Shown in pieces: positions 19,250-29,769 of a DNA stretch of 37,726 nucleotides. This stretch comes from Clostridia bacterium (GTDB lineage Bacteria > Bacillota > Clostridia > Christensenellales > Aristaeellaceae). Position numbers and translations under genes: made by a program. Positions within the stretch are counted from its first letter, which is position 1. Each line of letters begins with the position of its first letter. The stretch is taken from NCBI GenBank assembly GCA_030530315.1, contig JAUMVG010000030.1, positions 1 through 37,726 on the forward strand. The letters run 5' to 3'. The notes beneath the pieces are model-generated. The model was not told the origin of the DNA. It ran no database searches and saw nothing but the letters and a program-made list of their open reading frames with translations.

Positions 19250-20458
19250 ATGGAAATGACCGACAGACTGTATTATGATGACGCCTACCTGACCGAATTC
19301 GACGGCACGGTGCTGGCGTGTGAAAAGAGAGAGCGCGACTGGGTCGTGCGCCTGGACAGGAGCGCCTTTTATCCCACCTCCGGCGGGCAGCCCTTCGACA
19401 CCGGACGGCTCGGCGGCGCGGCGGTGCTGGACGTGTTCGTGGACGAAGCGGGGGAGGTCTGGCACGCGGTGGACGCGCCCATGGAGGCGGGGCAGGCCGT
19501 GCACGGCAGCATCGACTGGCCGCGCCGGTTCGACCACATGCAGCAGCACGCGGCGGACCACATGATCGCCAGCGCCCTTTGGCGGCACATGGGCGGCGTG
19601 ACCATCGGCCTGCACATCAGCGCCGAGGTGTCCACCATCGACGTGGCCATGCCCGAGGGCGTCACCCGCATCTCGGCGGAGGACATCCGCGCCATCGAGG
19701 ACGACGTGAACGCGCGGGTGCAGCGGGACGTGCCGGTGCGCTGCTGGTTCCCGGAGCCCGGCGAGCTGGCCGCGCTGCCGCTGCGCAAGCCGCCCACGGT
19801 GTCCGAGCACGTGCGCGTGGTGGCCATCGGCGAGGACGAGATGGTCGCCTGCGGCGGCACGCACCCCTCCACGGCGGGCCAGCTGGGCCTGGTGAAGATC
19901 CTCGGCGTCACCCCGGCCCGGGGAAAGATGCGCGTCAGCTTCGTGGCGGGTAAGCGGGCATACGAGGATTACCGCAAGACCTTCGACAGCGCCCACGGCA
20001 CCGCGGCGCTGCTCTCCACGGGCGTCGAGCAGCTGGAGAGCCACGTGGCCGCCATGCAGGAGGAGCTCAAGGCCGCCCACGCGGAGCTCGGCCGGCTGCG
20101 CAGGGAGGAGGCCCTTCGCGGACTCATGGTGGCTGTGGAATCGGCCCCGAGGCTTTCCGGCGGCGCCGCCGTGGTGGCCCGGATGCTGGAGGGAGACGCG
20201 AACCTGTTGAAGGACGCCGCCTCCAAGTTAATAAAAGCCCCGTGCATCGTGGCGCTGCTGGGGGCGAAGGCGGAGGATCGGGCCGTGTTCGTGTTCGCCC
20301 GGTCTGCGGACGTGGACGTGAACATGGGAAAGCTGCTTGCCGCGGCGGCAAAGCCCCTGGGTGGCAAGGGCGGCGGCAGGCCGGACTTTGCCCAGGGCGG
20401 CGGCGATCCGGCCATATTGGACGCCGCGTTGCAACTGCTCATGGAAAACAAGTCATAA
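19250..20458 (+). CDS. alaX: AlaX-type alanyl-tRNA editing protein with DHHA1 domain
   Basis: A free-standing relative of the AlaRS editing domain that deacylates Ser- or Gly-tRNA-Ala. It is 402 residues from ATG 19250 (CGGAG 4 bp upstream; ATG 19256 is an alternative). Seen are SAFYPTSGGQPFDTG near residue 38, DHMQQHAADHM near residue 95 (the zinc HxxxH motif) and CGGTH near residue 203 (second zinc half). A coiled-coil-like stretch follows near residues 255-285, then a C-terminal DHHA1 domain ending GGKGGGRPDFAQGGG. The full-length form with DHHA1 is the long AlaX class. It is divergent from the T-box unit of hisS-aspS. Confidence 0.9.
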   Translation: MEMTDRLYYDDAYLTEFDGTVLACEKRERDWVVRLDRSAFYPTSGGQPFDTGRLGGAAVLDVFVDEAGEVWHAVDAPMEAGQAVHGSIDWPRRFDHMQQHAADHMIASALWRHMGGVTIGLHISAEVSTIDVAMPEGVTRISAEDIRAIEDDVNARVQRDVPVRCWFPEPGELAALPLRKPPTVSEHVRVVAIGEDEMVACGGTHPSTAGQLGLVKILGVTPARGKMRVSFVAGKRAYEDYRKTFDSAHGTAALLSTGVEQLESHVAAMQEELKAAHAELGRLRREEALRGLMVAVESAPRLSGGAAVVARMLEGDANLLKDAASKLIKAPCIVALLGAKAEDRAVFVFARSADVDVNMGKLLAAAAKPLGGKGGGRPDFAQGGGDPAILDAALQLLMENKS

Positions 20459-20514
20459 ACAGACCGAAGTCTTTAACTTATTGTTAATATTCGACAAACA
20501 GACCGAAGCCTGTA
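20457..20514. repeat. Two 19-bp direct repeats between alaX and the HAD gene
   Basis: AAACAGACCGAAG opens both copies (20457-20475 and 20496-20514, 39 bp apart); 17 of 19 positions match. The first copy begins inside the alaX stop codon. TTAAC/GTTAA arms lie between them. The 10-bp core CAGACCGAAG also occurs near 5323. Confidence 0.6.
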
Positions 20515-20550
20515 CGCGCAAAACAAGAATATGATAAATCGGAGGTTCCC

Positions 20551-21198
20551 GTGAACTTTGACTTTGACGCCGCCATCTTCGACATGGACGGCACGCTTTT
20601 GAACACGATGCCCTATTGGCGCTACACCTCCCTGGAATACCTGCTGGCCCACCAGCTGCCGGTGCGGGAGGACATCCTGCTGCGGATGTACGCCACCTCG
20701 TCCCGCAGGCTCCTGGCGGAATACATGGACGAATTGGGCGTGCCCTACGAGCGCGGGGAGATGATCCGCGAGCTGGAGGGCTACATGAACCGGCATTACC
20801 TGTACGACGCCCACCTGAAGGTGCCCTCCGTGCCCCTGCTGCTGGACCGACTTCGGTCGGAAGGCGTGCGCATGTGCGTGGCGACGGGCTCGCCGAGGGA
20901 GTATGCGCGCAACGGCCTGAAGCGGCTGGGCCTGTTGGACTACTTCGAGTTCGTCACCGACAACTACGAGGGCCGCTATACGAAGGACCAGCCCGGCTAC
21001 TTCGATGACGTGATGGCACGCCTCGGCGCCACCCCGGACCGCTGCTGGGTTTTCGAGGATGCCCTGTACGCCATGGAGTCCGCGAAGGCCAGCGGGCTTC
21101 GGGTCTGCGCCATCGAGGAGGACACCCAATTGGAGAGCCGCGAGGCGATCAGGGCGCTTGCGGACGTCTACGTCCGGGATTATCAGGAATTATTATAG
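20551..21198 (+). CDS. HAD-superfamily hydrolase (beta-phosphoglucomutase-like)
   Basis: A 215-residue cytoplasmic phosphatase or phosphomutase of unknown substrate. It starts at GTG 20551, 5 bp after GGAGG. Motif I is AIFDMDGTLLNT (nucleophile and acid-base Asp pair). A helical cap of about 70 residues follows, with motif II CVATGSP and motif III Lys in GRYTKDQPGYF. Motif IV is FEDALYAMESAKASG, with an acidic metal-binding pair. The cap position and motif IV are typical of the beta-phosphoglucomutase/phosphoglycolate phosphatase branch. No neighbour fixes its substrate. Confidence 0.85.
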   Translation: MNFDFDAAIFDMDGTLLNTMPYWRYTSLEYLLAHQLPVREDILLRMYATSSRRLLAEYMDELGVPYERGEMIRELEGYMNRHYLYDAHLKVPSVPLLLDRLRSEGVRMCVATGSPREYARNGLKRLGLLDYFEFVTDNYEGRYTKDQPGYFDDVMARLGATPDRCWVFEDALYAMESAKASGLRVCAIEEDTQLESREAIRALADVYVRDYQELL

Positions 21199-21285
21199 GA
21201 AGATGCGCGATCCGGGCGACGAAAGATCGAAGGATAATGCATGCAAAACGTAGGATAGTGGACGCGCCGGACGGGCGGTTCAACG

Positions 21286-21291
21286 TATAAT
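21286..21291 (+). promoter_or_regulatory. Candidate -10 box upstream of the methyltransferase fusion
   Basis: TATAAT lies 90 bp before the ATG at 21381. No recognisable -35 hexamer is found 16-18 bp upstream, where the DNA is GC-rich (CGCGCC). This would fit an activator-dependent promoter, or a chance match. Confidence 0.4.
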
Positions 21292-21380
21292 TTGTTTGTG
21301 GTATACCGAGTTTTCAGGGGATTCAGAGCGCTGGAAACGGAACGAACTGCGCGGGAGCATCCCGGGAGGAACAGACAGAT

Positions 21381-24317
21381 ATGATCATAATTGGAGAAAA
21401 GCTGAACGGCTCCATACCGGCGGTGGCCAAGGCCATCGCGGAAAAGGACGAGGCGTTCATTCGCGAGCGGGCGAAGCTCCAGGCCGAGGCCGGAGCGACC
21501 TTCCTGGACGTCTGCGCGTCCGTGGAGGAGGCCGTCGAAGTCGAGACGCTGGTGTGGATGATCTGCCAGATCCAGGGCGTGACGGACGTGCCCATCTGCA
21601 TCGACAGCCCCAGCGCCCAGACCTGCGTGCGGGCTCTGCCGTTTTGCAGGAAGCCCGGCCTGATCAACTCCGTGTCGCTGGAGGGGAACAAGATCGACAC
21701 GATCTTCCCGGTGATCGCCGACACCGAGTGGCAGTGCGTGGCGCTGCTGTGCGACAACGACGGCATTCCCGACAGCGTGGAGAAGCGCATGGACGTGTTC
21801 CACGGCATCATGGCCAAGGCGAAGGAATACGGCATCGCGCCCTCCCGGCTGCACATCGACCCGCTGGTGGTCACCCTGTCCACGGACCAGACGGCGCTGC
21901 TGGTGTTCGCCGAGTGCTGCCGCAGGATCAAGGCAGAGTACCCGGACATCCACATCACCAGCGGCCTGAGCAACATCTCCTACGGCCTGCCCACCCGCAA
22001 GAACATCAACTACGCCTTCATGACGCTGGCGATGGAGGCGGGCATGGACAGCGCCATCGTCGATCCCACCAACCAGCAGATGCTGGGCATCATCTATGCC
22101 ACCAACGCCCTGCTGGGCCGGGATGAGTTCTGCCTGGAGTACATCAACAACTGCCGCGCCCAGGGCACGTCTCCCGCGCCGAAACAGACTTCGGTCGAGA
22201 CTTCCTCCGGGCAGGACGCGGGCGCGGCCAAACCCGCCGATGCCGGCTCCGATGACAACCGTGCCGCGAAGCTGCGGGCGGTGGCCGAGGCCGTGGAGAA
22301 CGGCAAGAACAAGGCCGTAAAGACCTGCGTGCAGGAGGCCTTGGACGCGGGCGTTCCCCCGAAGGACATCCTGAACGTGGGCATGATCGAGGCCATGGAC
22401 GTGGTCGGCGACCGCTTCCAGAAGCAGATCATATTCGTGCCCCAGATGCTGGCGGCGGCCCGCGCCATGAAGAGCGGCGTGGAGGTGCTCAAGCCCCACC
22501 TGTCCGAGGGCGGCGGCGGCAGCGTCGGCAAGATGATCCTGGGCACCGTGGCCGGCGACTTCCATGACATCGGCAAAAACCTGGTGGGCATGATGATCGA
22601 GAGCGCCGGGGTCGAGGTGATCGACCTGGGCGTGGACGTGCCCATTTCCACCTTCATTCGCGAGATCGAGAACCACCCGGACGTGACCATCGTGGGCCTG
22701 TCCGCGCTGCTGACCACCACGATGCCCTCCCTGCGGGACACCGTGGCGGCACTGAAGGAGCAGCCCTTCGCCAACCGCATCAAGATCATGGTGGGCGGCG
22801 CGCCCATCAACCAGGCCTTCGCCGACGAGATCGGCGCGGACGCCTATACCCCGGACGCCGCTTCCGCCGCCAAGAAGGCCAAGGAGCTGGCGCTGGAGAC
22901 CCGCGGCCTGGCGGGTGCGCCCGCCGGGACCGCGCCGGAGCGGGGGAGCGAAGAGCCTGCGCAGGGCAAAGCGGTCGAGGCGGATGCCCCGACGGAAGTC
23001 CAATCTGTCGAACAGACCAAAGTCGAGATACCTGCCGAGCCGGCGAAGCCCGCCTTTGACTTCACCCGCCTGAACGAGATCATGGCCATGCCCGCGCCGG
23101 CGCAGGACCTGACCCGCAGCAAATACTATGATCACTGGACCCAGACCCGGCAGAAGTGGATCAACTACTGGAAGCATCAGAACACCGGCCGCCCGGTGAT
23201 GACGGTTATCGCCCGCAAGCCGGAGGTGGAAGCCCTCAGCAACGGCGAGCCGCAGGACGGCGGCTACCTGGGCCAGATCTGTCAGGGCAATTACTACGGG
23301 CTGCCCGAGGAACTCATGTGGAAGGACATGGAGGACAAGTACCAGAACCCGGAGCGGATCGTGGCCCGCTATCGCCAGTTCTGCGAGACCCACGCCTTCC
23401 TGGCCGAGAGCTTCCCGAACCTGAACATCGACTTCGGTCCCGGGTCCTTGGCCTCCTACCTGGGCTCGGATATCGGCTTCAAGGAGGACACGGTCTGGTT
23501 CATGCCCTGCTTCACCGACGGTTGGGAGCACGCGCCGGAGCTGGTGTTCAACCCGGAAAACGCGTGGCTGCTGAAGCACCTGTACCTGGCCAAGGTCTGC
23601 CGCCAGCTGGCGGGGGACGACTTCTTCGTGGACATGCCCGACCTGATGGAGAACATCGACACCCTGGCCTCGCTGCGCGGCGCCCAGGACACCCTCTACG
23701 ACCTGCTGGACGAGCCGGAGGAGATCGAGAAGCGCGTCAAGCAGATCGACAAAATCTACTACGAATACTACAACCGGTTCTATGACATCATCAAGGACCA
23801 CGAGGGCGGCAACGCCTACACCGTGTTCCAGATCTGGGGCCCGGGCAAGACCGTGAAGCTGCAGTGCGACTTCTCCGCGATGATGTCCCCGGACGACTTC
23901 CGCGCCTACGTGCAGCCCTCGCTGCGCCAGCAGGCCGAGAAGGCGGACTGCGTGCTGTACCACCTGGACGGCCCGGACGCCATCAAGCACATGGACGCGC
24001 TGATGGAGATCGAGGGCATCGACGCCCTGCAGTGGACCAGCGGCGACGCGGGCCCGGACGGCACCCTGCCGGACTGGGACGTTATCTACGACAAGGCCAT
24101 CCTCGCGGGCAAGTCCATCTGGGTGAAGGTGTACTCCGGCGAGTTCGAGGACTGGCTGAAGAACGTGGACCGCGTCGTGCAGAAGTACGGCTCCCACAGC
24201 CTGTACCTGATGTTCCCGGAGATGTCCATGGAGCAGGCCGAGCGGCTTCTGGCCTACGCGGACGCGCACTGGAGCGACGTGAAAGGCACCTTCTGCGTGG
24301 AGCACGGGTTGAGGTAA
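21381..24317 (+). CDS. Fused pterin methyltransferase / corrinoid protein / UroD-like methyltransferase
   Basis: A 978-residue protein with three modules. Residues 1-262 are a pterin-binding (MtvA/MtgA/AcsE-like) barrel: MIIIGEKLNGSIP, then GLSNISYGLPTRKNIN and AIVDPTNQ. After a Pro/Ala/Ser-rich linker, residues 300-506 are a corrinoid protein with a helical cap and AGDFHDIGKNL, where His395 should ligate cobalt; VGLSALLTTTMPSL and MVGGAP follow. After a second linker (507-557), residues 558-978 are a UroD-like methyltransferase, with His861 (LYHLDG) and Cys972 (TFCVEH) as possible metal ligands. In known systems these are separate proteins moving a methyl group from a donor via cobalamin to tetrahydrofolate. 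The substrate is unknown. The ATG follows GGGAGGA. No reductive activator gene is nearby. Confidence 0.9.
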   Translation: MIIIGEKLNGSIPAVAKAIAEKDEAFIRERAKLQAEAGATFLDVCASVEEAVEVETLVWMICQIQGVTDVPICIDSPSAQTCVRALPFCRKPGLINSVSLEGNKIDTIFPVIADTEWQCVALLCDNDGIPDSVEKRMDVFHGIMAKAKEYGIAPSRLHIDPLVVTLSTDQTALLVFAECCRRIKAEYPDIHITSGLSNISYGLPTRKNINYAFMTLAMEAGMDSAIVDPTNQQMLGIIYATNALLGRDEFCLEYINNCRAQGTSPAPKQTSVETSSGQDAGAAKPADAGSDDNRAAKLRAVAEAVENGKNKAVKTCVQEALDAGVPPKDILNVGMIEAMDVVGDRFQKQIIFVPQMLAAARAMKSGVEVLKPHLSEGGGGSVGKMILGTVAGDFHDIGKNLVGMMIESAGVEVIDLGVDVPISTFIREIENHPDVTIVGLSALLTTTMPSLRDTVAALKEQPFANRIKIMVGGAPINQAFADEIGADAYTPDAASAAKKAKELALETRGLAGAPAGTAPERGSEEPAQGKAVEADAPTEVQSVEQTKVEIPAEPAKPAFDFTRLNEIMAMPAPAQDLTRSKYYDHWTQTRQKWINYWKHQNTGRPVMTVIARKPEVEALSNGEPQDGGYLGQICQGNYYGLPEELMWKDMEDKYQNPERIVARYRQFCETHAFLAESFPNLNIDFGPGSLASYLGSDIGFKEDTVWFMPCFTDGWEHAPELVFNPENAWLLKHLYLAKVCRQLAGDDFFVDMPDLMENIDTLASLRGAQDTLYDLLDEPEEIEKRVKQIDKIYYEYYNRFYDIIKDHEGGNAYTVFQIWGPGKTVKLQCDFSAMMSPDDFRAYVQPSLRQQAEKADCVLYHLDGPDAIKHMDALMEIEGIDALQWTSGDAGPDGTLPDWDVIYDKAILAGKSIWVKVYSGEFEDWLKNVDRVVQKYGSHSLYLMFPEMSMEQAERLLAYADAHWSDVKGTFCVEHGLR

Positions 24318-24328
24318 GTATCATTAAC

Positions 24329-24618
24329 GAAGGCGAAGACCGCGCGACGCGGCCTTCGCCTTCAATTCGTTGAAAAACCCCGGTTTTTCAACGAGAGAGG
24401 AAGATGCGAAAATTCGCGCCTTACGACACGAATTTTCTGACTGGCAGGGACTCATTTTTCTCCACAAACGCAAGCGTTTGTTCCCGAAAAATACAATTCT
24501 GACGTACATGACGCCAGAATTGATTGTAGATGGGGAGGCTTCACGCCTCCCCATACTCCTCCAGGGGTTGCCAATAGTCTGAAGGCGAAGAGCACTCGAC
24601 GCGGCCTTCGCCTTTCAG
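24329..24618. repeat. Seven-hairpin array between convergent methyltransferase and AraC genes
   Basis: Seven stem-loops lie end to end with no convincing gene. They are at 24329-24363 (15 paired bp), 24368-24393 (12 bp), 24408-24437 (9 bp), 24454-24492 (7+8 bp), 24494-24522 (8 bp), 24531-24553 (9 bp) and 24579-24618 (about 12 bp). The first and last share GAAGGCGAAGA on the left arm and CGACGCGGCCTTCGCCTT on the right. They can terminate both converging transcripts, but the number is far beyond that need. Confidence 0.75.
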
Positions 24619-24636
24619 CAATCGATTCTCGGGCCT

Positions 24637-25497
24637 CTACCGTCCACCCCGGGGGCTTTCTCCGGTGTACTTCCGGTACAGGCGGTAGAAGTTCGAGCTG
24701 TTGGGGAAGCCGCACTCGATGGCGACCTCGTAGATGCTCTTGCTGGTGGTCTCCAGCAGGCGCTGGGCCCTTCGGATGCGCCGCATGGTGATGTAGTCGG
24801 AAAAGCTGATGCCGGTGGCGGTGTGGAAGTAGTGGGAGAAGTAGTTGGGGCTCATGAACACCGTGTCCGCCGCGGCCTTGAGGGTCAGCCGCCCGCAATA
24901 GCCCTCGTCGATGTACTCAAAGGCGGGCCGCAGCCGGGCCAGCGCCTTGTTGCGGTCGCTGGGCTGGGGAGCGGTGGCGCGGGAATCGTTGTGGTAGTGG
25001 CGCACCAGCATCGTCAGGATCCGAAGCACGTCCGACTTGATCAGCAGCCGGTAGCCGTCGCCGCGGTTCTGCCATTCGCTGTGGATCTCGCTCATGCTGG
25101 CCGCGATCTCGGCAGCATAGCGTTCCTCGCTGCCGATGCGGTTGATGAAGTTGCTGCCCCGCTTGATGAACGGGTCCAGGTACTCCATGTCGGACATGGG
25201 CCCGTAGCCCGCCACCAGCTCCGGCGCGAACACCATGGCCAGCACCTTCATCTCCCGGTGGAGCAGCTGCCAGCCGTGCAGTTCGGCGCTGTTGAATATG
25301 ATGAGGTCCCCCGGTCTGACATCGAAGGCCCGGCCGTTCACATAATAGCAGCCGCTGCCCTCCAGCACGCAGGTGATCTCGAAATAGCTGTGCCAGTGGA
25401 ACAGGTCGTCCGAGTTGTCCTTCGCGCTGAGCAATACCTCGTTGATCTGGAAGGGGAACGCCTGGTCCAGAACGAGGCTGTCCTCGTAACCTTTCAT
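24637..25497 (-). CDS. AraC-family transcriptional regulator with cupin sensor domain
   Basis: A 286-residue regulator. Residues 1-110 form a cupin-like sugar sensor domain (FHWHSYFEITCVLEGSGCYY, then VRPGDLIIFNSAELHGW). The last 100 residues hold two helix-turn-helix units: LTLKAAADTVFMSPNYFSHY and IYEVAIECGFPNSSNFYRLY. The ATG at 25497 follows AAAGAGG. It is transcribed away from a CUT1 sugar transporter operon, so it most likely senses that sugar and activates the operon. Direct repeats in the shared gap are spaced as AraC half-sites (listed separately). Confidence 0.92.
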   Translation of the reverse strand: MKGYEDSLVLDQAFPFQINEVLLSAKDNSDDLFHWHSYFEITCVLEGSGCYYVNGRAFDVRPGDLIIFNSAELHGWQLLHREMKVLAMVFAPELVAGYGPMSDMEYLDPFIKRGSNFINRIGSEERYAAEIAASMSEIHSEWQNRGDGYRLLIKSDVLRILTMLVRHYHNDSRATAPQPSDRNKALARLRPAFEYIDEGYCGRLTLKAAADTVFMSPNYFSHYFHTATGISFSDYITMRRIRRAQRLLETTSKSIYEVAIECGFPNSSNFYRLYRKYTGESPRGGR

Positions 25498-25571
25498 GAT
25501 CGCCTCTTTGCCCCGTCCGCTTCGGGCAGGTGTGCTCGCCGGACAGGGGACGTATTGTTTAATTTCTGAAT

Positions 25572-25604
25572 ATAGTGTACAATTAAAGTAAAATAGTGTA
25601 TAGT
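25572..25604 (+). promoter_or_regulatory. CUT1 transporter promoter with AraC-like half-site repeats
   Basis: TGTACA (25576-25581), 17-bp spacer and TATAGT (25599-25604) form the promoter for the binding-protein gene. ATAGTGTA occurs at 25572-25579 and 25593-25600, in direct orientation 21 bp apart, which is two helical turns and the usual spacing for AraC-family half-sites. Confidence 0.6.
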
Positions 25605-25691
25605 ATTCGCGTGTTAATTTTGATAGAATTTTAATGACGTTATGCGGCCTGACAAAAAAGGCGCATAAAAAATGACAGGAGGATGTATTGT

Positions 25692-27020
25692 ATGAAGAAG
25701 CTATTGAGCGTTGTGCTGTGCCTGCTGCTGGCGATGAGCCTGCTGGGCGCGACCGCCGAGAACGTCGTCGTCGAAGCCGTGCCCAACGAGGGCCAGTTCG
25801 AGGGCGAGGAGCTCACCATCCTGGTGTCTGCCGGCTGGATGGACAACCGCTACGACGATACCATTGCCCGCTTTGAGGAAACCTACGGCGTCACCGTGGA
25901 CCTGCAGAGCCTGCCGGCCGACCAGTACTTCGACGTGCTGACCAGCGGCCTGGACAACGGCACCTGCGCGGATGTGTTCTGGACCCAGTCCAACCCCGCG
26001 GGCATGCTCGTCTCCATGATCGGCGATCCCGAGGGACGCTGCATTGACTTCACCGGCGCTGATTGGCAGAACGTGATGCCCGAAGCGCGCCAGGCGGCCT
26101 GCATCGCCGACGGCAAGCTGTACGGCCTGCAGATCTGGCACAACAGCCCCGAGTACGTCATGGTCTACAACAAGACCCTGTTCGCGGAGCTGGGCATCGA
26201 GACCGTTCCCACCACCTATGAAGAGCTGAAGGCTGACTGCGCCATCATCGCCGATGCGGGCATCACCCCGTGGTTCATCCCCGGCGCCGACGGCTGGCAG
26301 CACCAGCTGGCCTTCTTCCAGATCGGCGGCGTCTATGAAGAGGCGCAGCCCGGCCTGTACGAGGCCCTGAACAACAACACCGCCACCTTCGCCGGTAACG
26401 AGAAGATGCTGGAGGTCCTGGCGCAGTTCAAGGAGCTGTCCGACCTGGGCTACTTCGGTGAGGACTGGATCGGCTCCGACTCCACCAACATGGCCAACGA
26501 GTACGGCGACCGCACGATCGCCATGGCCATGAACAACGCCAGCTATATCAAGCAGCTGCAGGCCGAGTTGGACACCGAGGATGAGTGGGGCATGTTCCTG
26601 ATCCCCCTGGGCGACAACACCTGGTTCCCCACCAGCCCCGCCGGCCCCACCATGTTCGGCTACAAGGGCACCGAGCATGAGGACCTGGTCCGCGCCTGGT
26701 TCCAGTTCGTCTGCACGCCGGAAAGCCTGCAGGAGATCCTGGACAACTCCCCGAACTACACCAACCTGCACGTGAACGTGGACATCGAGCAGCACTGGCT
26801 GCCCGAGGAAGAAGCCTTCGTGGAGAGCATCGACCCCGCCAAGATGAACTGCTGCGTGCTGCAGAACGGCACCAAGTACACCAACGACTACTGGATGCAG
26901 TTCGGCCAGGATATGATCGAGTACGTCCAGGGCGGCATCGAGGCCAACGACGTGCTGGCCCGCATGGACGGCTATCGCGCCGAGGGCGCCAAGAGCGTTG
27001 GCGACGAGGCTTGGCAGTAA
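25692..27020 (+). CDS. Family 1 (CUT1) sugar-binding protein
   Basis: Captures sugar outside the cell for the two permeases downstream; 442 residues. I start at ATG 25692, 9 bp after AGGAGG; the ATG at 25683 abuts the AGGAGG. The N-terminus is a signal peptide (MKKLLSVVLCLLLAMSLLGA) ending near ATA|EN. It has no lipobox, which is unusual for a monoderm. The mature part shows ELTILVSAGWMDNRY, KLYGLQIWHNSPEYVMVYNK and a long Trp- and Tyr-rich substrate region typical of the family. The gene is divergent from the AraC regulator, and a terminator-like hairpin follows. Confidence 0.92.
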   Translation: MKKLLSVVLCLLLAMSLLGATAENVVVEAVPNEGQFEGEELTILVSAGWMDNRYDDTIARFEETYGVTVDLQSLPADQYFDVLTSGLDNGTCADVFWTQSNPAGMLVSMIGDPEGRCIDFTGADWQNVMPEARQAACIADGKLYGLQIWHNSPEYVMVYNKTLFAELGIETVPTTYEELKADCAIIADAGITPWFIPGADGWQHQLAFFQIGGVYEEAQPGLYEALNNNTATFAGNEKMLEVLAQFKELSDLGYFGEDWIGSDSTNMANEYGDRTIAMAMNNASYIKQLQAELDTEDEWGMFLIPLGDNTWFPTSPAGPTMFGYKGTEHEDLVRAWFQFVCTPESLQEILDNSPNYTNLHVNVDIEQHWLPEEEAFVESIDPAKMNCCVLQNGTKYTNDYWMQFGQDMIEYVQGGIEANDVLARMDGYRAEGAKSVGDEAWQ

Positions 27021-27052
27021 TCCGCTGAAAACGATCGCTTGAAGTGACAAGC

Positions 27053-27089
27053 CCGGCCGGGCATCGACAGACGGTGCCCGGCCGGTTTT
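27053..27089 (+). terminator. Terminator-like hairpin after the sugar-binding protein gene
   Basis: A perfect 11-bp stem (CCGGCCGGGCA and complement, 27053-27063/27075-27085) is followed by TTTT. In a transport operon it probably attenuates read-through to the permeases so that more binding protein is made. Confidence 0.75.
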
Positions 27090-27111
27090 CATGGCACACA
27101 TCCAAGGCGAT

Positions 27112-27166
27112 GGGCTTCGGCCCTCGCGGGCGGGCGCGCGGGGCGCGCCGGCGAGGATGGAAGCCC
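27112..27166 (+). other. Very GC-rich structured leader upstream of the permease genes
   Basis: Three nested stems: 27112-27118/27160-27166 (7 bp), 27122-27127/27151-27156 (6 bp) and 27133-27139/27143-27149 (7 bp, GGG loop), separated by small internal loops. The surrounding 27090-27295 has no supported gene. Further on, two similar words (GGCGG...AAAAGGAT) lie at 27218 and 27271. I recognise no riboswitch family. Confidence 0.5.
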
Positions 27167-27295
27167 GTCCGACTGACGGGTGCGAGTACGGTGCCAAGCT
27201 GCGGACGTCGGTCCCGGGGCGGAAAAGGATCGCCTGAAAGAAGGCGCGTGCTCCGGCAAAGCGTCCGCAGGGCGGCAGAAAAGGATGGCGAGCAC

Positions 27296-28174
27296 ATGAA
27301 CAAGAAAAAGATCTATCCGCAGTGGTTTTTGCTGCTGCCACTATTGCTGTATGTCGTGTTTTTCCTGTTCCCGAGCCTGCTGGGCGTGTTTTATTCGTTC
27401 ACGGACTGGGGCCGCAGCACTCCGAAGAATGGCCTGCACTTCGTTGGCCTGCAAAACTATGTGGAGATATTCACCTCTGACAAAAACTACGCCTCCGGCA
27501 TAATGAACACGCTGAAGTTCACGGTGATCTCCAACATCGTCAAGATCATCCCGGCGCTGTTCCTGGCCATCATACTGTACGAGGGCCTCAAGGGCATGGG
27601 CGCCTACCGCACCATCTTCTACATGCCCTCCATCATCCCGTTCGTCATCATCGGCATACTGTTCACCTCCGTGCTGAACTACAAGAACGGCATGCTGAAC
27701 ACCGTGCTGCAGGCCGTCGGCCTGGGAGCGCTGAAGCAGAAGTGGCTCTCAGACCTAAACGTGGTCTGGAAATCCATCTACATGGTGGACGCCTGGCGCG
27801 GCATGGGCTACGTCATGACCATCTTCATGACGGGCCTCTCCACCATCGACAAGACCTACTACGAGGCCGCCAAGGTGGACGGGGCGAACTTCTGGCAGCG
27901 GCTGTGGAACGTGACCCTGCCGATGATGCGCGGCGCGATCATGATCAACCTGGTCTTCGGCGTCACCTATGGCCTGAAGGTGTTCGACATCGTGTACGTG
28001 CTGACCAACGGCGGCCCGGGCCATGCCACCGAGGTCATGACGACCTATTCGTTCCAGCTGTACGGCGCGGGACAGTACGGCCTGTCCACGGCGTTTAACT
28101 CCATACTGCTGTTGATCACCGCCGTCATCGGCATCGTCATCGTCCGGGTGATGAGCAGAAAGGGGGAGATGTGA
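27296..28174 (+). CDS. CUT1 sugar ABC permease (MalF/UgpA class)
   Basis: A 292-residue membrane protein with about six helices: YPQWFLLLPLLLYVVFFLFP first, and the last near SILLLITAVIGIVIVRVM. The ATPase-contact loop EAAKVDGANFWQRLWNVTLP is well conserved. It starts at ATG 27296, with AAAAGGA upstream; the frame is open further upstream but passes through the structured leader. It is translationally close to the next permease. No ATPase gene belongs to this operon, so it must share a household MsmX/UgpC-type ATPase encoded elsewhere. Confidence 0.92.
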   Translation: MNKKKIYPQWFLLLPLLLYVVFFLFPSLLGVFYSFTDWGRSTPKNGLHFVGLQNYVEIFTSDKNYASGIMNTLKFTVISNIVKIIPALFLAIILYEGLKGMGAYRTIFYMPSIIPFVIIGILFTSVLNYKNGMLNTVLQAVGLGALKQKWLSDLNVVWKSIYMVDAWRGMGYVMTIFMTGLSTIDKTYYEAAKVDGANFWQRLWNVTLPMMRGAIMINLVFGVTYGLKVFDIVYVLTNGGPGHATEVMTTYSFQLYGAGQYGLSTAFNSILLLITAVIGIVIVRVMSRKGEM

Positions 28175-28176
28175 GC

Positions 28177-29019
28177 ATGAAGACTCCGAAAGCCAACCGC
28201 AAGCCCCTGACGCTGCAGACGGTACTCAAGCAGCTGCTGTGCATCTTCCTGTCGCTGATCGTGCTCGCGCCGATGTACCTGGTGGTCATCAATTCCTTCA
28301 AGACGAAGAACGAGTCCGCGCGCATGAACCTGAGCCTGCCCAAGCAGTGGCTGTTCGAGAACTACGCCACCGTGTTCCAGAAGGCTAAGCTGATGACCGG
28401 CTTCATGAACAGCATGATCTACGCCCTGGTGGCCACCACGGTGGGCGTGCTGCTGTGCTCCATGGCCGCCTATGTGCTCAGCCGCAAGCGCACCAGGCTG
28501 AACAACTTCATCTACTACTTCTTCATCTGCGGCCTGTTCTTCCCGGTGAACTACGTCACCCTGGTGCGCGTGTTCCAATGGCTGAACCTGACCAACACCC
28601 GGCTGGGCATCGTGCTGGTGTTCACCAGCGGCATGATCCCCTTCTGCGTGTTCACGATCTACAGCTTCGTGGAGACCATTCCCAAGGAGCTGGACGAGGC
28701 GGCGGTCATCGACGGCGCGCGGCCGGCGGGACTGTTCTTCCGGGTCGTGCTGCCGCTGCTGAAGCCCACGGTGATGACCTGCTTCATATTGCAGTTCATG
28801 GGCGTCTGGAACGACTTCCTCACGCCGCTGTACCTGTCCAGCAAGACCAAGCTGCACCCGATGACCATGTCCGTGTATCAGTTCTTCGGCAGGGAGAGCA
28901 GCTACTGGAACCTGGTGTTCGCGGACATCGTGTTGACCATCATTCCGGTGCTGGTGGTGTATGGCATCGGCCAGCGCTACATCATCGGCGGCGTGACCGC
29001 CGGCGCGGTGAAGGGATAA
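28177..29019 (+). CDS. CUT1 sugar ABC permease (MalG/UgpE class)
   Basis: Second permease of the sugar importer, 280 residues. The first helix is LLCIFLSLIVLAPMYLVVIN, and the contact loop is LDEAAVIDGARPAGLFFRVV. FMGVWNDFLTPLYL and a C-terminal RYIIGGVTAGAVKG are typical. I start at ATG 28177, because GGGGGAG lies 8 bp upstream; the GTG at 28171, which overlaps the upstream stop, is too close to that site. A hairpin closes the operon. Confidence 0.92.
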   Translation: MKTPKANRKPLTLQTVLKQLLCIFLSLIVLAPMYLVVINSFKTKNESARMNLSLPKQWLFENYATVFQKAKLMTGFMNSMIYALVATTVGVLLCSMAAYVLSRKRTRLNNFIYYFFICGLFFPVNYVTLVRVFQWLNLTNTRLGIVLVFTSGMIPFCVFTIYSFVETIPKELDEAAVIDGARPAGLFFRVVLPLLKPTVMTCFILQFMGVWNDFLTPLYLSSKTKLHPMTMSVYQFFGRESSYWNLVFADIVLTIIPVLVVYGIGQRYIIGGVTAGAVKG

Positions 29020-29028
29020 TACAAAGAC

Positions 29029-29079
29029 AAAGCGGCGCGGGCCGAAGGGCGATGAGCCCCGGTGTCCGCGCCGCGCTTT
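29029..29079 (+). terminator. Stem-loop closing the CUT1 operon
   Basis: AAAGCGGCGCGG pairs with CCGCGCC and GCTTT, with a 2-nt bulge and a long loop. It lies 10 bp after the permease stop. There is only a short T-run (CTTTA), so termination may be partial and the small gene at 29107 could be read through. Confidence 0.55.
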
Positions 29080-29106
29080 ATGACGAGCCAGGGGGAGGTA
29101 TGATCT

Positions 29107-29331
29107 GTGAGCCTTTTCAAAAAGCGGGACCGGGAGGCAATTCAATACGATCCGAACACCCAGCAGCCCGCCGTGCGCAAGAGCATCTGCACGGGGGAGA
29201 TGACCGCGGGCTTCATCGACCGGGAGACCGGCAGGTTCAGGGACATCATGCGCCTCGACGGACAGAAGGACCTGGAGGCGTTCTGCAGGAGCGTCGGAGT
29301 GAGCGTGGAGGAGATCAAGACCATTTACTGA
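29107..29331 (+). CDS. Small conserved-type protein of unknown function (74 residues)
   Basis: It starts at GTG 29107, 8 bp after GGGGGAGG, a strong ribosome binding site. The product is hydrophilic with no membrane helix: MSLFKKRDREAIQYDP at the start, PAVRKSICTGEMTAGFID in the middle and a helical end DLEAFCRSVGVSVEEIK. The SICTGE...GFxDxxTGxF pattern reminds me of short proteins in other gut Clostridia whose annotations I do not trust. No function can be given. It follows the sugar permeases after a hairpin and precedes a large inverted repeat. Confidence 0.75.
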   Translation: MSLFKKRDREAIQYDPNTQQPAVRKSICTGEMTAGFIDRETGRFRDIMRLDGQKDLEAFCRSVGVSVEEIKTIY

Positions 29332-29402
29332 GAGGATCTCGCAGAACGCGCCCCGGCGATATGCCCCGTATGCGCGGTGGGAACAGGACGAATAAAACAA
29401 AG

Positions 29403-29467
29403 AAGATCCTTCGCTTTCTCCAGGATGACGGCATTGCAGTGTCATCCTGGGCAAAGCGAAGGATCTT
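29403..29467. repeat. 65-bp inverted-repeat element (15 + 10 bp stem)
   Basis: The outer arms of 15 bp (29403-29417/29453-29467) and inner arms of 10 bp (29420-29429/29441-29450) are perfect, with a 2x2 internal loop and an 11-nt apex. The sequence is built from GATCCTTCGCTTT and CAGGATGAC. That pattern resembles a dispersed repeat family I recall from many bacterial genomes. A T-rich stretch follows on the minus strand, so it can end the gene at 29539-29769. Confidence 0.75.
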
Positions 29468-29538
29468 GCCATTATTGAGAGCATGGCTGACCGACCGGCA
29501 GGGAAAGGCGACATAATGCGGGCCCTGCGGCATGGGTC

Positions 29539-29769
29539 TCAGCTGTTGACGATGCTGTCCTGGTGGCCGAAGCTGTAAATGGTCATCTTGTCCGGGATCT
29601 CCGTGACCAGCAGATTCCTGGAGAAGATGGTGCACACGGACTTTTCCAGTATGGCGCGGGCGCTCTCCGGGTCGACGGCCCGCACGATGCCCTTCTCCTG
29701 GCGCTTGACGACGCTGCCGTTGCGATTGCGGATGAAGTGGTCGACCGACCAGAAGAAGAGCTTTGCCAT
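29539..29769 (-). CDS. Small hypothetical protein (76 residues)
   Basis: It starts at ATG 29769 (MAKLFFWSVDHFIRNRNGSV), with only GGGG as an upstream Shine-Dalgarno-like run. It ends after EIPDKMTIYSFGHQDSIVNS. The protein is soluble and mixed alpha/beta by eye: a Lys/Arg-rich segment VVKRQEKGIVRAV, a helix PESARAILEKSV, then two likely strands. I do not recognise a family. Support for it being real comes from a good promoter 100 bp upstream and a hairpin downstream; base composition does not argue against it. Confidence 0.6.
   Translation of the reverse strand: MAKLFFWSVDHFIRNRNGSVVKRQEKGIVRAVDPESARAILEKSVCTIFSRNLLVTEIPDKMTIYSFGHQDSIVNS

Follow-up and report, generated by a model that had tools for sequence, protein, structure and literature searches.

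Three-component O-demethylases of acetogens such as MtvABC and VdmABCD are encoded by separate genes and act on aromatic substrates. Their substrate methyltransferases (MtvB/VdmB type) carry an E-X14-E-X20-H zinc motif, and the thiol-type UroD methyltransferases MtaA, MtbA and MetE have an HxC zinc motif at a conserved place. Two-module fusions are known from MtsD/F/H and CmuA, whose substrates are methyl-sulfur compounds or chloromethane. In the window (the whole stretch of 37,726 nucleotides that was analysed) one open reading frame joins all three types of component in a single chain. Its features are as follows.

21364..21370, + strand: ribosome-binding site GGGAGGA, 10 bases from the ATG (sequence reading)
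21381..24317, + strand: three-module fused protein (MeTr, corrinoid, UroD-like D3), 978 aa (profile matches, orthologues)
21381..22163, + strand: module 1, residues 1-261, methyltetrahydrofolate:corrinoid methyltransferase (PF00809, NF005719, 4o0q, pterin-site residues)
22164..22271, + strand: linker 1, residues 262-297, variable, low complexity (composition, orthologue comparison)
22272..22895, + strand: module 2, residues 298-505, corrinoid-binding protein (PF02607, PF02310, NF047996, 1y80)
22557..22574, + strand: DFHDIG, residues 393-398, corrinoid lower-ligand motif including His395 (sequence reading)
22896..23126, + strand: linker 2, residues 506-582, variable (composition, orthologue comparison)
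23127..24314, + strand: module 3 (D3), residues ~583-978, divergent UroD-superfamily domain, predicted O-methyl-sugar:corrinoid methyltransferase (profile-profile comparison)
23961..23972, + strand: HLDG, residues 861-864, the invariant HxDG that replaces the UroD HxCG zinc motif (alignment)

The initial annotation had read three modules in this frame, and the domain search bore this out, with modules 1 and 2 above curated cut-offs. Module 1 matched PF00809 (4e-19) and NF005719 (4e-102; 340.9 bits against a cut-off of 259), and its best solved homologue in the PDB comparison was 4o0q (4e-93). It contains D75, N96, D160 and N198, which we take to be the pterin-site residues of methyl-THF methyltransferases. 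The model match and these residues together assign module 1 to the methyl-THF:corrinoid methyltransferases. Module 2 passed the Pfam cut-offs for PF02607 (1e-20) and PF02310 (4e-24) and matched 1y80 in the PDB (5e-51). Its NCBIfam match to NF047996 (1.7e-56) was under that model's cut-off, as were its scores against all substrate-named NCBIfam corrinoid models. With a B12-binding_2 cap, a B12-binding domain and a DxHxxG motif it is classed as a methyltransferase corrinoid protein. His395 is the expected corrinoid ligand because DFHDIG begins at residue 393, in agreement with the site first proposed. The linkers consist to 92 % (262-297) and 75 % (506-582) of P/A/E/G/S/T/Q/K/D. Comparison of the window with four orthologues indicated that they differ in sequence and length while the modules are conserved, which fits the flexible linkers of the initial annotation; their role is presumed from these features.

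Opposite the fusion gene lies a long antisense ORF (21183-24305, - strand) that we regard as a by-product of composition. A sigma-70-type scan of 20400-29600 gave 7 promoter-like sites against 2.2 expected, the same region holds 9 terminator-like sites against 6.6 expected, and an Rfam scan of the window returned nothing at the gathering threshold.

To what extent the fusion is shared was determined by genome comparison. Fusions spanning residues 1-978 occur in 7 of 28 genomes of the genus, indicating that the fused frame is not due to chance, and the samples of order, family and class showed none outside the genus. The seven include G305, whose frame is interrupted near residue 204. This break, and the fact that the five named carriers are all uncultured or MAG records, could suggest that the fusion is an error of metagenome assembly or of annotation. 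Such an origin has a negligible likelihood given that the matched stretches of the seven genomes share 85-96 % identity with the window, that the linkers vary yet stay in frame between conserved modules, and that a tree placed D3 of six fused rows in one clade (100/100). By their coordinates the five fused loci of named MAGs are five of these same seven genomes and not extra cases. In all, D3 was found in 14 of the 28 genomes (7 fused, 6 unfused and 1 contig-edge fragment) and the other 14 are without it.

D3 alone matched nothing in Pfam at E<=10, no NCBIfam family and only chance chains in the PDB (best E 0.22), and it was not recovered by a PF01208 search of its own genome. Only 5 of 51 D3 homologues matched PF01208 (best 7e-5). 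Profile-profile comparison with hhalign nevertheless aligned D3 with UroD, at 96.2 % and E 2e-9 for 15 PF01208 proteins and 94.3 % for a pair, against <=0.5 % for eight control families. By this profile similarity D3 is placed in the UroD/MetE superfamily, as the initial annotation held, and a UroD-type fold is predicted from the 124 columns that the match spans. Where UroD proteins align with their HxCG zinc motif, all 51 homologues have HxDG; HxC occurs somewhere in 10 of the 51 and never at the conserved place. By this motif D3 would not belong with the thiol-type enzymes MtaA, MtbA and MetE. The E-X14-E-X20-H motif is present in 0 of the 51, which by that motif would also separate D3 from the MtvB/VdmB-type O-demethylases. 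D3 relatives were confirmed in no viral contig and found on no plasmid; the phage search gave a single unannotated UNVERIFIED faecal record (38 %).

Downstream of the fusion the window encodes a regulator and a transporter.

24637..25497, - strand: AraC-family regulator, divergent from the transporter genes (PF12833, PF02311)
25683..27020, + strand: sugar ABC transporter, solute-binding protein (PF01547, PF13416; hydrophobic N-terminus; co-occurrence with D3)
27296..28174, + strand: sugar ABC permease, MalF-like (PF00528)
28177..29019, + strand: sugar ABC permease, MalG-like (PF00528)

An orthologue of the solute-binding protein (at least 79 %) is present in exactly the 14 of 28 genus genomes that carry D3 and both are missing from the other 14; this test, like the other co-occurrence tests, ignores relatedness and uses thresholds chosen after inspecting the data. 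The AraC-family regulator also adjoins the fusion in G322, G306, G318, G305 and G301, and the transporter adjoins it in 5 of the 7 fusion genomes. In G301 and G264 the transporter orthologue lies on a different contig, and the G264 fusion adjoins a LacI regulator, a protein with an arabinofuranosidase domain and a different ABC system (28-30 %). Unfused D3 genes are found directly 3' of the same permeases in G313, G316, G298 and, in another genus, G375.

We then read the neighbourhoods of 33 unfused close D3 homologues (>=39 %; more distant relatives were kept out of the 33). GH31 is next to D3 in 17, GH138 in 7, MalF/MalG in 6 and any of these in 21, whereas 12 loci have none of these markers; examples of the latter adjoin a homocysteine methyltransferase (L085), a PFL-like gene (L086) or a Bmp-type ABC gene (L088). 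A single GH31 (L067) was compared with the PDB and has alpha-xylosidases as its nearest matches (5jou, 2.5e-133); the one GH138 so compared (L082) matches BPa0997 (6hzf, 3e-176). At L080 the gene order is FGGY kinase, fucose isomerase, apiosidase-like, GH31, D3, GH138 and glucuronoyl-esterase-like, and D3 as called overlaps the adjoining genes by 1 and 4 bases. In G568, a one-contig genome of another family, genes for a solute-binding protein, MalF, MalG (43-56 %), GH31 and D3 are consecutive (L199) and convergent with apiosidase-, kinase- and isomerase-like genes. Among 250 family genomes GH138 occurs in 9, of which 8 carry a close D3, and GH31 (E<=1e-120) is found in 23 of the 24 genomes that have a close D3 and in 51 of the 226 that lack one. 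No corrinoid gene was seen beside an unfused close D3. Around 28 distant relatives (L091, L121-L132, L134-L148) mostly nothing was recognised, with a corrinoid protein beside D3 in three (L121, L125, L129) and GH31 in one (L130). On G+C-rich contigs such as L164 the self-trained gene caller disagreed with the window-trained one, whose calls were used. GH138 was found in 0 of 19 genomes surveyed in the genus itself; consequently, for the fusion the link to rhamnogalacturonan II (RG-II) runs via homologues, the transporter and GH31. The GH31 gene of its own genome lies away from the fusion, at G000:C38, and adjoins genes of central metabolism together with GH36, GH43 and a GDSL/CE2-like esterase, a context that would also fit hemicellulose.

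The initial annotation took MtvA/C/B-type vanillate or methoxyaromatic demethylases as its template, and a one-chain enzyme fed by lignin-derived methoxyphenols would have the same three part types as MtvABC/VdmABCD. Module 1 also has as its nearest solved homologue 4o0q, a protein from a Desulfitobacterium O-demethylase cluster. This reading is unsupported because D3 co-occurs with a sugar transporter and 21 of 33 loci have GH31, GH138 or transporter genes; D3 neighbours also include apiosidase and GH29 genes, and D3 has neither the E-X14-E-X20-H zinc motif nor an NCBIfam or PDB match to such a component. We therefore hold a methoxyaromatic substrate to be improbable. The annotation had also been unable to link D3 to a substrate; the neighbourhoods now point to an O-methyl sugar. 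Judged by the gene neighbourhoods of its relatives, the fused B12 chain of this gut-type anaerobe appears to demethylate rare sugars of the plant cell wall and not lignin-type compounds.

Methionine synthesis was considered as well, with D3 moving the corrinoid methyl group to homocysteine like its MetE-like relatives. TIGR02082 matches residues 2-505 of the fusion, but the score against this metH model is 234 for a cut-off of 1011. A MetH-like match (residues 2-503) is found in 0 of 14 genomes with D3 against 10 of 14 without, the homologue L085 adjoins a homocysteine methyltransferase, and the D3 family profile has MetE (4ztx) as its best PDB match, although at E 0.041 this is far from significance. 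A substitute for methionine synthase is still highly improbable: all 14 genomes with D3 have a lone homocysteine methyltransferase gene (frames of 297-365 aa; PF02574 in 28 of 28), HxDG replaces HxCG throughout, D3 lies among sugar genes, and the fusion has no PF02574 or activation-domain match in Pfam or NCBIfam. Without homocysteine-binding and AdoMet activation modules it would not be classed as a MetH.

Which sugar would be demethylated is a separate matter. Passages of PMC10154630, PMC12168206 and PMC12282258 describe 2-O-methyl-xylose and 2-O-methyl-fucose in RG-II and hydrolases that release them or fragments containing them. In chain A 2-O-methyl-xylose is alpha-1,3-linked to fucose, and GH141 BT1002 frees the 2-O-Me-xylose-alpha-1,3-fucose disaccharide (parts of PMC10154630 and PMC12168206). 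GH138 is an RG-II family that acts on chain A. The same sugar genes would suit 2-O-methyl-L-fucose (RG-II chain B), a methyl glycoside or 4-O-methyl-D-glucuronate, the commonest methyl sugar of xylan; GH95-like and GH29 genes neighbour D3 in some loci, and L080 has its glucuronoyl-esterase-like gene. We find these sugars rather unlikely, GH31 being the top marker of those counted and the methyl sugar of the chain targeted by GH138 being, in those passages, xylose. Xyloglucan would account for GH31 and fucosidases; it was dropped because it leaves the corrinoid methyltransferase and GH138 unexplained.

Demethylation of a methyl sugar by the fusion is, from these sequence comparisons, reasonably probable. 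We propose, with somewhat better than even confidence, that the protein is a self-contained corrinoid-dependent O-demethylase whose substrate is a methylated sugar of the plant cell wall. The likeliest candidate is 2-O-methyl-D-xylose from RG-II side chain A; this particular sugar, taken by itself, is a tentative choice. The AraC-controlled ABC transporter would import oligosaccharide or monosaccharide, and a cytoplasmic GH31 enzyme of the alpha-xylosidase type would yield the free O-methyl sugar. D3 would bind it, activate the ether oxygen at a His/Asp site via a metal or general acid (candidates H861, D863, D754, D760, D830, H870 and perhaps C829) and pass the methyl group onto Co(I) of module 2. 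From there module 1 would transfer it to tetrahydrofolate, which we consider the likelier direction, and methyl-THF could enter the Wood-Ljungdahl pathway through the Acs enzymes; the genome encodes AcsE, AcsV, AcsD, AcsC and AcsB. Co(II) would be re-reduced by a separate RACo/RamA-type activase; the same genome encodes an activase, and RACo is present in 13 of 14 genomes with D3.

In the literature searched, seen in part, no description was found of the anaerobic fate of the RG-II sugar methyl group. If true, a corrinoid sugar demethylase would explain that fate, extend the substrate classes of the UroD methyltransferases to alkyl ethers, reveal a methyl source for gut acetogens and offer biotechnology a natural one-chain demethylase. 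At slightly less than even chances we put the wider idea that Co(I) cleaves an alkyl methyl ether on an RG-II sugar via a UroD-type domain without the usual cysteine zinc site, that the methyl group ends in acetate, that pectin methyl groups partly sustain acetogens of the gut and rumen, and that the D3 clade elsewhere is the stand-alone form.

The Bacteroides RG-II depolymerising sets (GH137-GH143), reported as hydrolases in passages of PMC7922503, PMC10154630 and PMC12282258, likewise include GH138 and release 2-O-methyl sugars; the main text of PMC12282258 does not contain 'demethyl'. For mlp clusters, the part consulted of PMC10418091 proposes SCMT homologues for methyl-sulfur and methyl-selenide and mentions no sugar. 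MtsD/F/H and CmuA also join a corrinoid module to a UroD-type methyltransferase, but they have two modules and no folate methyltransferase. MetH shares the order of folate and then corrinoid module on one chain, whereas the fusion lacks the N-terminal homocysteine and the activation modules and has a C-terminal UroD-like module instead. In a designed MT-CP fusion from D. hafniense a linker also joins methyltransferase and corrinoid protein, and the abstract of PMC9930637 describes its performance as comparable to that of the separated proteins and better in some aspects; it is artificial, has two modules and uses guaiacyl substrates. MtvABC and VdmABCD are alike in having a substrate methyltransferase, a corrinoid protein, a methyl-THF methyltransferase and a separate reductive activase, and differ in their separate genes, their aromatic instead of a predicted sugar substrate and the zinc motif that D3 lacks.

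The open reading frame at 21381-24317 (+) encodes a fusion of 978 residues, in which the Pfam and NCBIfam searches placed the following domains:

Residues 1-261, + strand: methyl-THF:corrinoid methyltransferase model NF005719 (340.9 bits, cut-off 259)
Residues 26-228, + strand: Pterin_bind
Residues 299-371, + strand: B12-binding_2
Residues 384-493, + strand: B12-binding

The PDB chain nearest to module 1 is 4o0q and that nearest to module 2 is 1y80, followed by methionine synthases and a trimethylamine corrinoid protein. The position of His395, assigned to the corrinoid-binding region in the initial annotation, is right because the DFHDIG motif of module 2 starts at residue 393. When the window protein is compared with four orthologues, at an overall mean column identity of 90 %, the modules are conserved and the linkers vary in length and letters. 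Opposite the whole fusion lies an antisense ORF of 1040 codons (21183-24305, -), which probably arises from the G+C-rich codon usage.

The third module (D3) spans residues ~583-978, a region without Pfam match at E<=10, without NCBIfam match and without meaningful PDB match, the best profile-search match, MetE 4ztx (0.041), being not significant. We aligned D3 with 50 homologues collected from the genome surveys (51 rows), after dropping one 292-aa piece, merging nested or identical copies and leaving out fused rows already present. All 51 rows share eleven invariant residues (G686, W706, D754, D760, D830, H861, D863, G864, H870, Q884 and W885, fusion numbering). Only one of the 51 reached MtaA in NCBIfam, at 0.052, and five matched PF01208 (best 7e-5). 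With hhalign, the D3 alignment matched 15 PF01208 proteins of related genomes at 96.2 % (E 2e-9, 124 columns) and a pair of similar UroD proteins at 94.3 %, against at most 0.5 % for eight control families (GH31, 28 sequences; MalG, 20; MalF, 17; SBP, 8; D2, 8; GH29, 3; D1, 2; HcyMT, 2). In that alignment the HxDG of D3 falls on the UroD HxCG, with Asp replacing the zinc Cys in 51/51 rows. The PF01208 matches and the hhalign result against the controls thus indicate that D3 is, by sequence, a distant UroD-like domain in which Asp takes the place of the zinc Cys. Close to the site there may nevertheless be a Cys, since C829 is kept in 26/26 close members (at least 39 % identity) and in 43/51 overall.

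The full fusion was found in seven of the 28 genus genomes (G000, which is the window's own, G322, G264, G306, G301, G318 and G305). The G305 frame is interrupted near residue 204, which splits the fusion into two overlapping ORFs (locus L069, 3881-6789) through either an assembly error or a real frameshift. Six further genus genomes carry an unfused D3 (54-57 %), and G308 holds a 33-residue D3 end at a contig edge, which may belong to a fused or an unfused copy. D3 relatives occur in 44/250 family and 21/297 order genomes at E<=0.001, and in 42/391 class genomes at E<=1e-30; in these listings no fusion was seen outside the genus, the longest D3-bearing open frame being at most 495 aa. Six exact peptides of the fusion were scanned against 84,980 species genomes, a search that reaches close relatives only, and seven loci emerged: five full fusions (by coordinates G322, G264, G306, G318 and G305 again), L070, a D3 alone in a Lachnospiraceae MAG, and L071, a corrinoid protein. 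The record titles of the five name uncultured Clostridiales or Clostridia, one from roe deer jejunum; the RUG isolates among them we take to be rumen genomes. A human faecal scaffold recorded as an UNVERIFIED 'bacteriophage' (L184, MT840006.1) also holds a D3 relative (311-1216); this scaffold is probably bacterial DNA. In the D3 tree, from which G301 was left out, the six fused D3s form a single clade (100/100) whose sister is L070 (96/92), and the unfused genus D3s group separately with G375, from another genus (100/100). The simplest reading would be that the fusion arose once and that D3 was transferred.

The genes next to the fusion encode a regulator of the AraC family and a sugar ABC transporter. 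The solute-binding protein (SBP) is present at >=79 % in exactly the 14 D3-carrying genus genomes, and in the other 14 genomes the best remaining long matches reach at most 34 % (Fisher 5e-8 over 28 genomes, not corrected for relatedness). It sits beside the fusion in 5/7 fused genomes and on another contig in G264 and G301; in G264 the fusion neighbours are a LacI regulator, another ABC system and an arabinofuranosidase-domain protein. In G313, G316, G298 and G375 the unfused D3 comes after the same MalF/MalG, and MalG is followed by a GH31 gene in L067 and L068 and by a GH95-like gene in L069 and G264:C47. Among 15 proteins checked with a crude hydropathy measure only the SBP has a signal-like N-terminus, a pattern that fits import before cleavage. 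A nucleoside-phosphorylase-superfamily gene lies right after the unfused D3 in L073 (10513-11241), L074 and L075 (G316, G298 and G297).

We read 33 unfused close D3 loci (L070 plus 17, 7 and 8 from three further listings), counting as beside D3 any gene with at most one gene between. GH31 is beside D3 in 17, GH138 in seven (L197 as fragments only), MalF/MalG at >=43 % in six, and at least one of these in 21; the remaining 12 (L075, L085-L088, L119, L120, L198, L200-L203) include L075 at a contig edge and some on short contigs. The L067 GH31 is closest to the alpha-xylosidases BoGH31A, 7kmp and Xyl31A. An 891-aa neighbour in L082 matches BPa0997 (3e-176), and other GH138 genes were recognised by likeness to it. 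An excerpt of PMC7922503 groups GH138 with debranching of rhamnogalacturonan II (RG-II), and the family appears in a paper title in the reference list of PMC12282258. L080 reads FGGY kinase, fucose isomerase, apiosidase-like (PF13204), GH31, D3, GH138 and glucuronoyl-esterase-like; in the gene calls its D3 shares 1 and 4 bases with the genes on either side. Apiosidase-like genes also occur in L079, L082, L116 and L117. They are present too in L199, a genome from a different family consisting of one contig, where they are accompanied by kinase, isomerase, transporter and GH31 genes. Elsewhere, a D3 homologue (42 %) comes right after a homocysteine S-methyltransferase gene (L085, 2369-4276, G325), the sole such pair in the context comparison. 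Among distant relatives (below 39 %), L130 (4824-8210, G185) adjoins a GH31 gene, and L121, L125 and L129 have a corrinoid protein gene nearby. Several types of substrate may be represented in the D3 family as a whole.

At genome level, close D3 is present in 24/250 family genomes (the G308 fragment uncounted) and GH138 in nine, eight of which carry close D3 (Fisher 2e-8). GH31 (E<=1e-120) was found in 23/24 family genomes with close D3 (not G325) versus 51/226 without (8e-13), and at >=69 % identity in 10/10 sampled D3-carrying genus genomes versus 1/9 lacking D3 (G317). Two results count against an RG-II link: GH138 is absent from all 19 genus genomes sampled, and the window genome's own GH31 gene (G000:C38, 69 %) sits among GH36, GH43 and esterase genes. 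GH141 BT1002 releases a 2-O-Me-Xyl-Fuc disaccharide, according to a part of PMC10154630, and this or similar small products may be what the genus scavenges.

The window genome encodes AcsE, AcsV, AcsD, AcsC and AcsB above NCBIfam cut-offs and two RACo_C_ter activases; these genes suggest that methyl-THF can be converted to acetyl-CoA and that a separate protein can rescue Co(II). AcsE is present twice, with the same score on each of two contigs (L181, 15352-16134; L182, 8594-9376), reflecting either duplication or the assembly's 6 % contamination. The activase is found in 13/14 D3-carrying genus genomes (not G320) versus 4/14 without D3. MetH-like proteins, present in 10/14 genus genomes lacking D3, had no match in the 14 D3-carrying ones in the genus survey, which would suit a methionine synthase role of the fusion, but all 14 possess a lone homocysteine methyltransferase gene, which argues against that role. 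The window genome holds a second, split corrinoid system (L005, 1820-10854, G000:C10 at about 41.8-50.9 kb). Its genes code for an activase of the RACo type, a methyl-THF methyltransferase with 59 % likeness to module 1, an L-rhamnose mutarotase, a UroD methyltransferase that has the HxCG motif, and an ABC transporter of the ribose type. This system, too, looks like a methyl-sugar demethylase.

No description of this fusion of three modules, or of a sugar demethylase that depends on a corrinoid, was found in the open-access literature, subscription papers being mostly outside the search. Known systems include corrinoid demethylases made of three components and fusions of two modules. One two-module fusion was designed, according to a part of PMC9930637.
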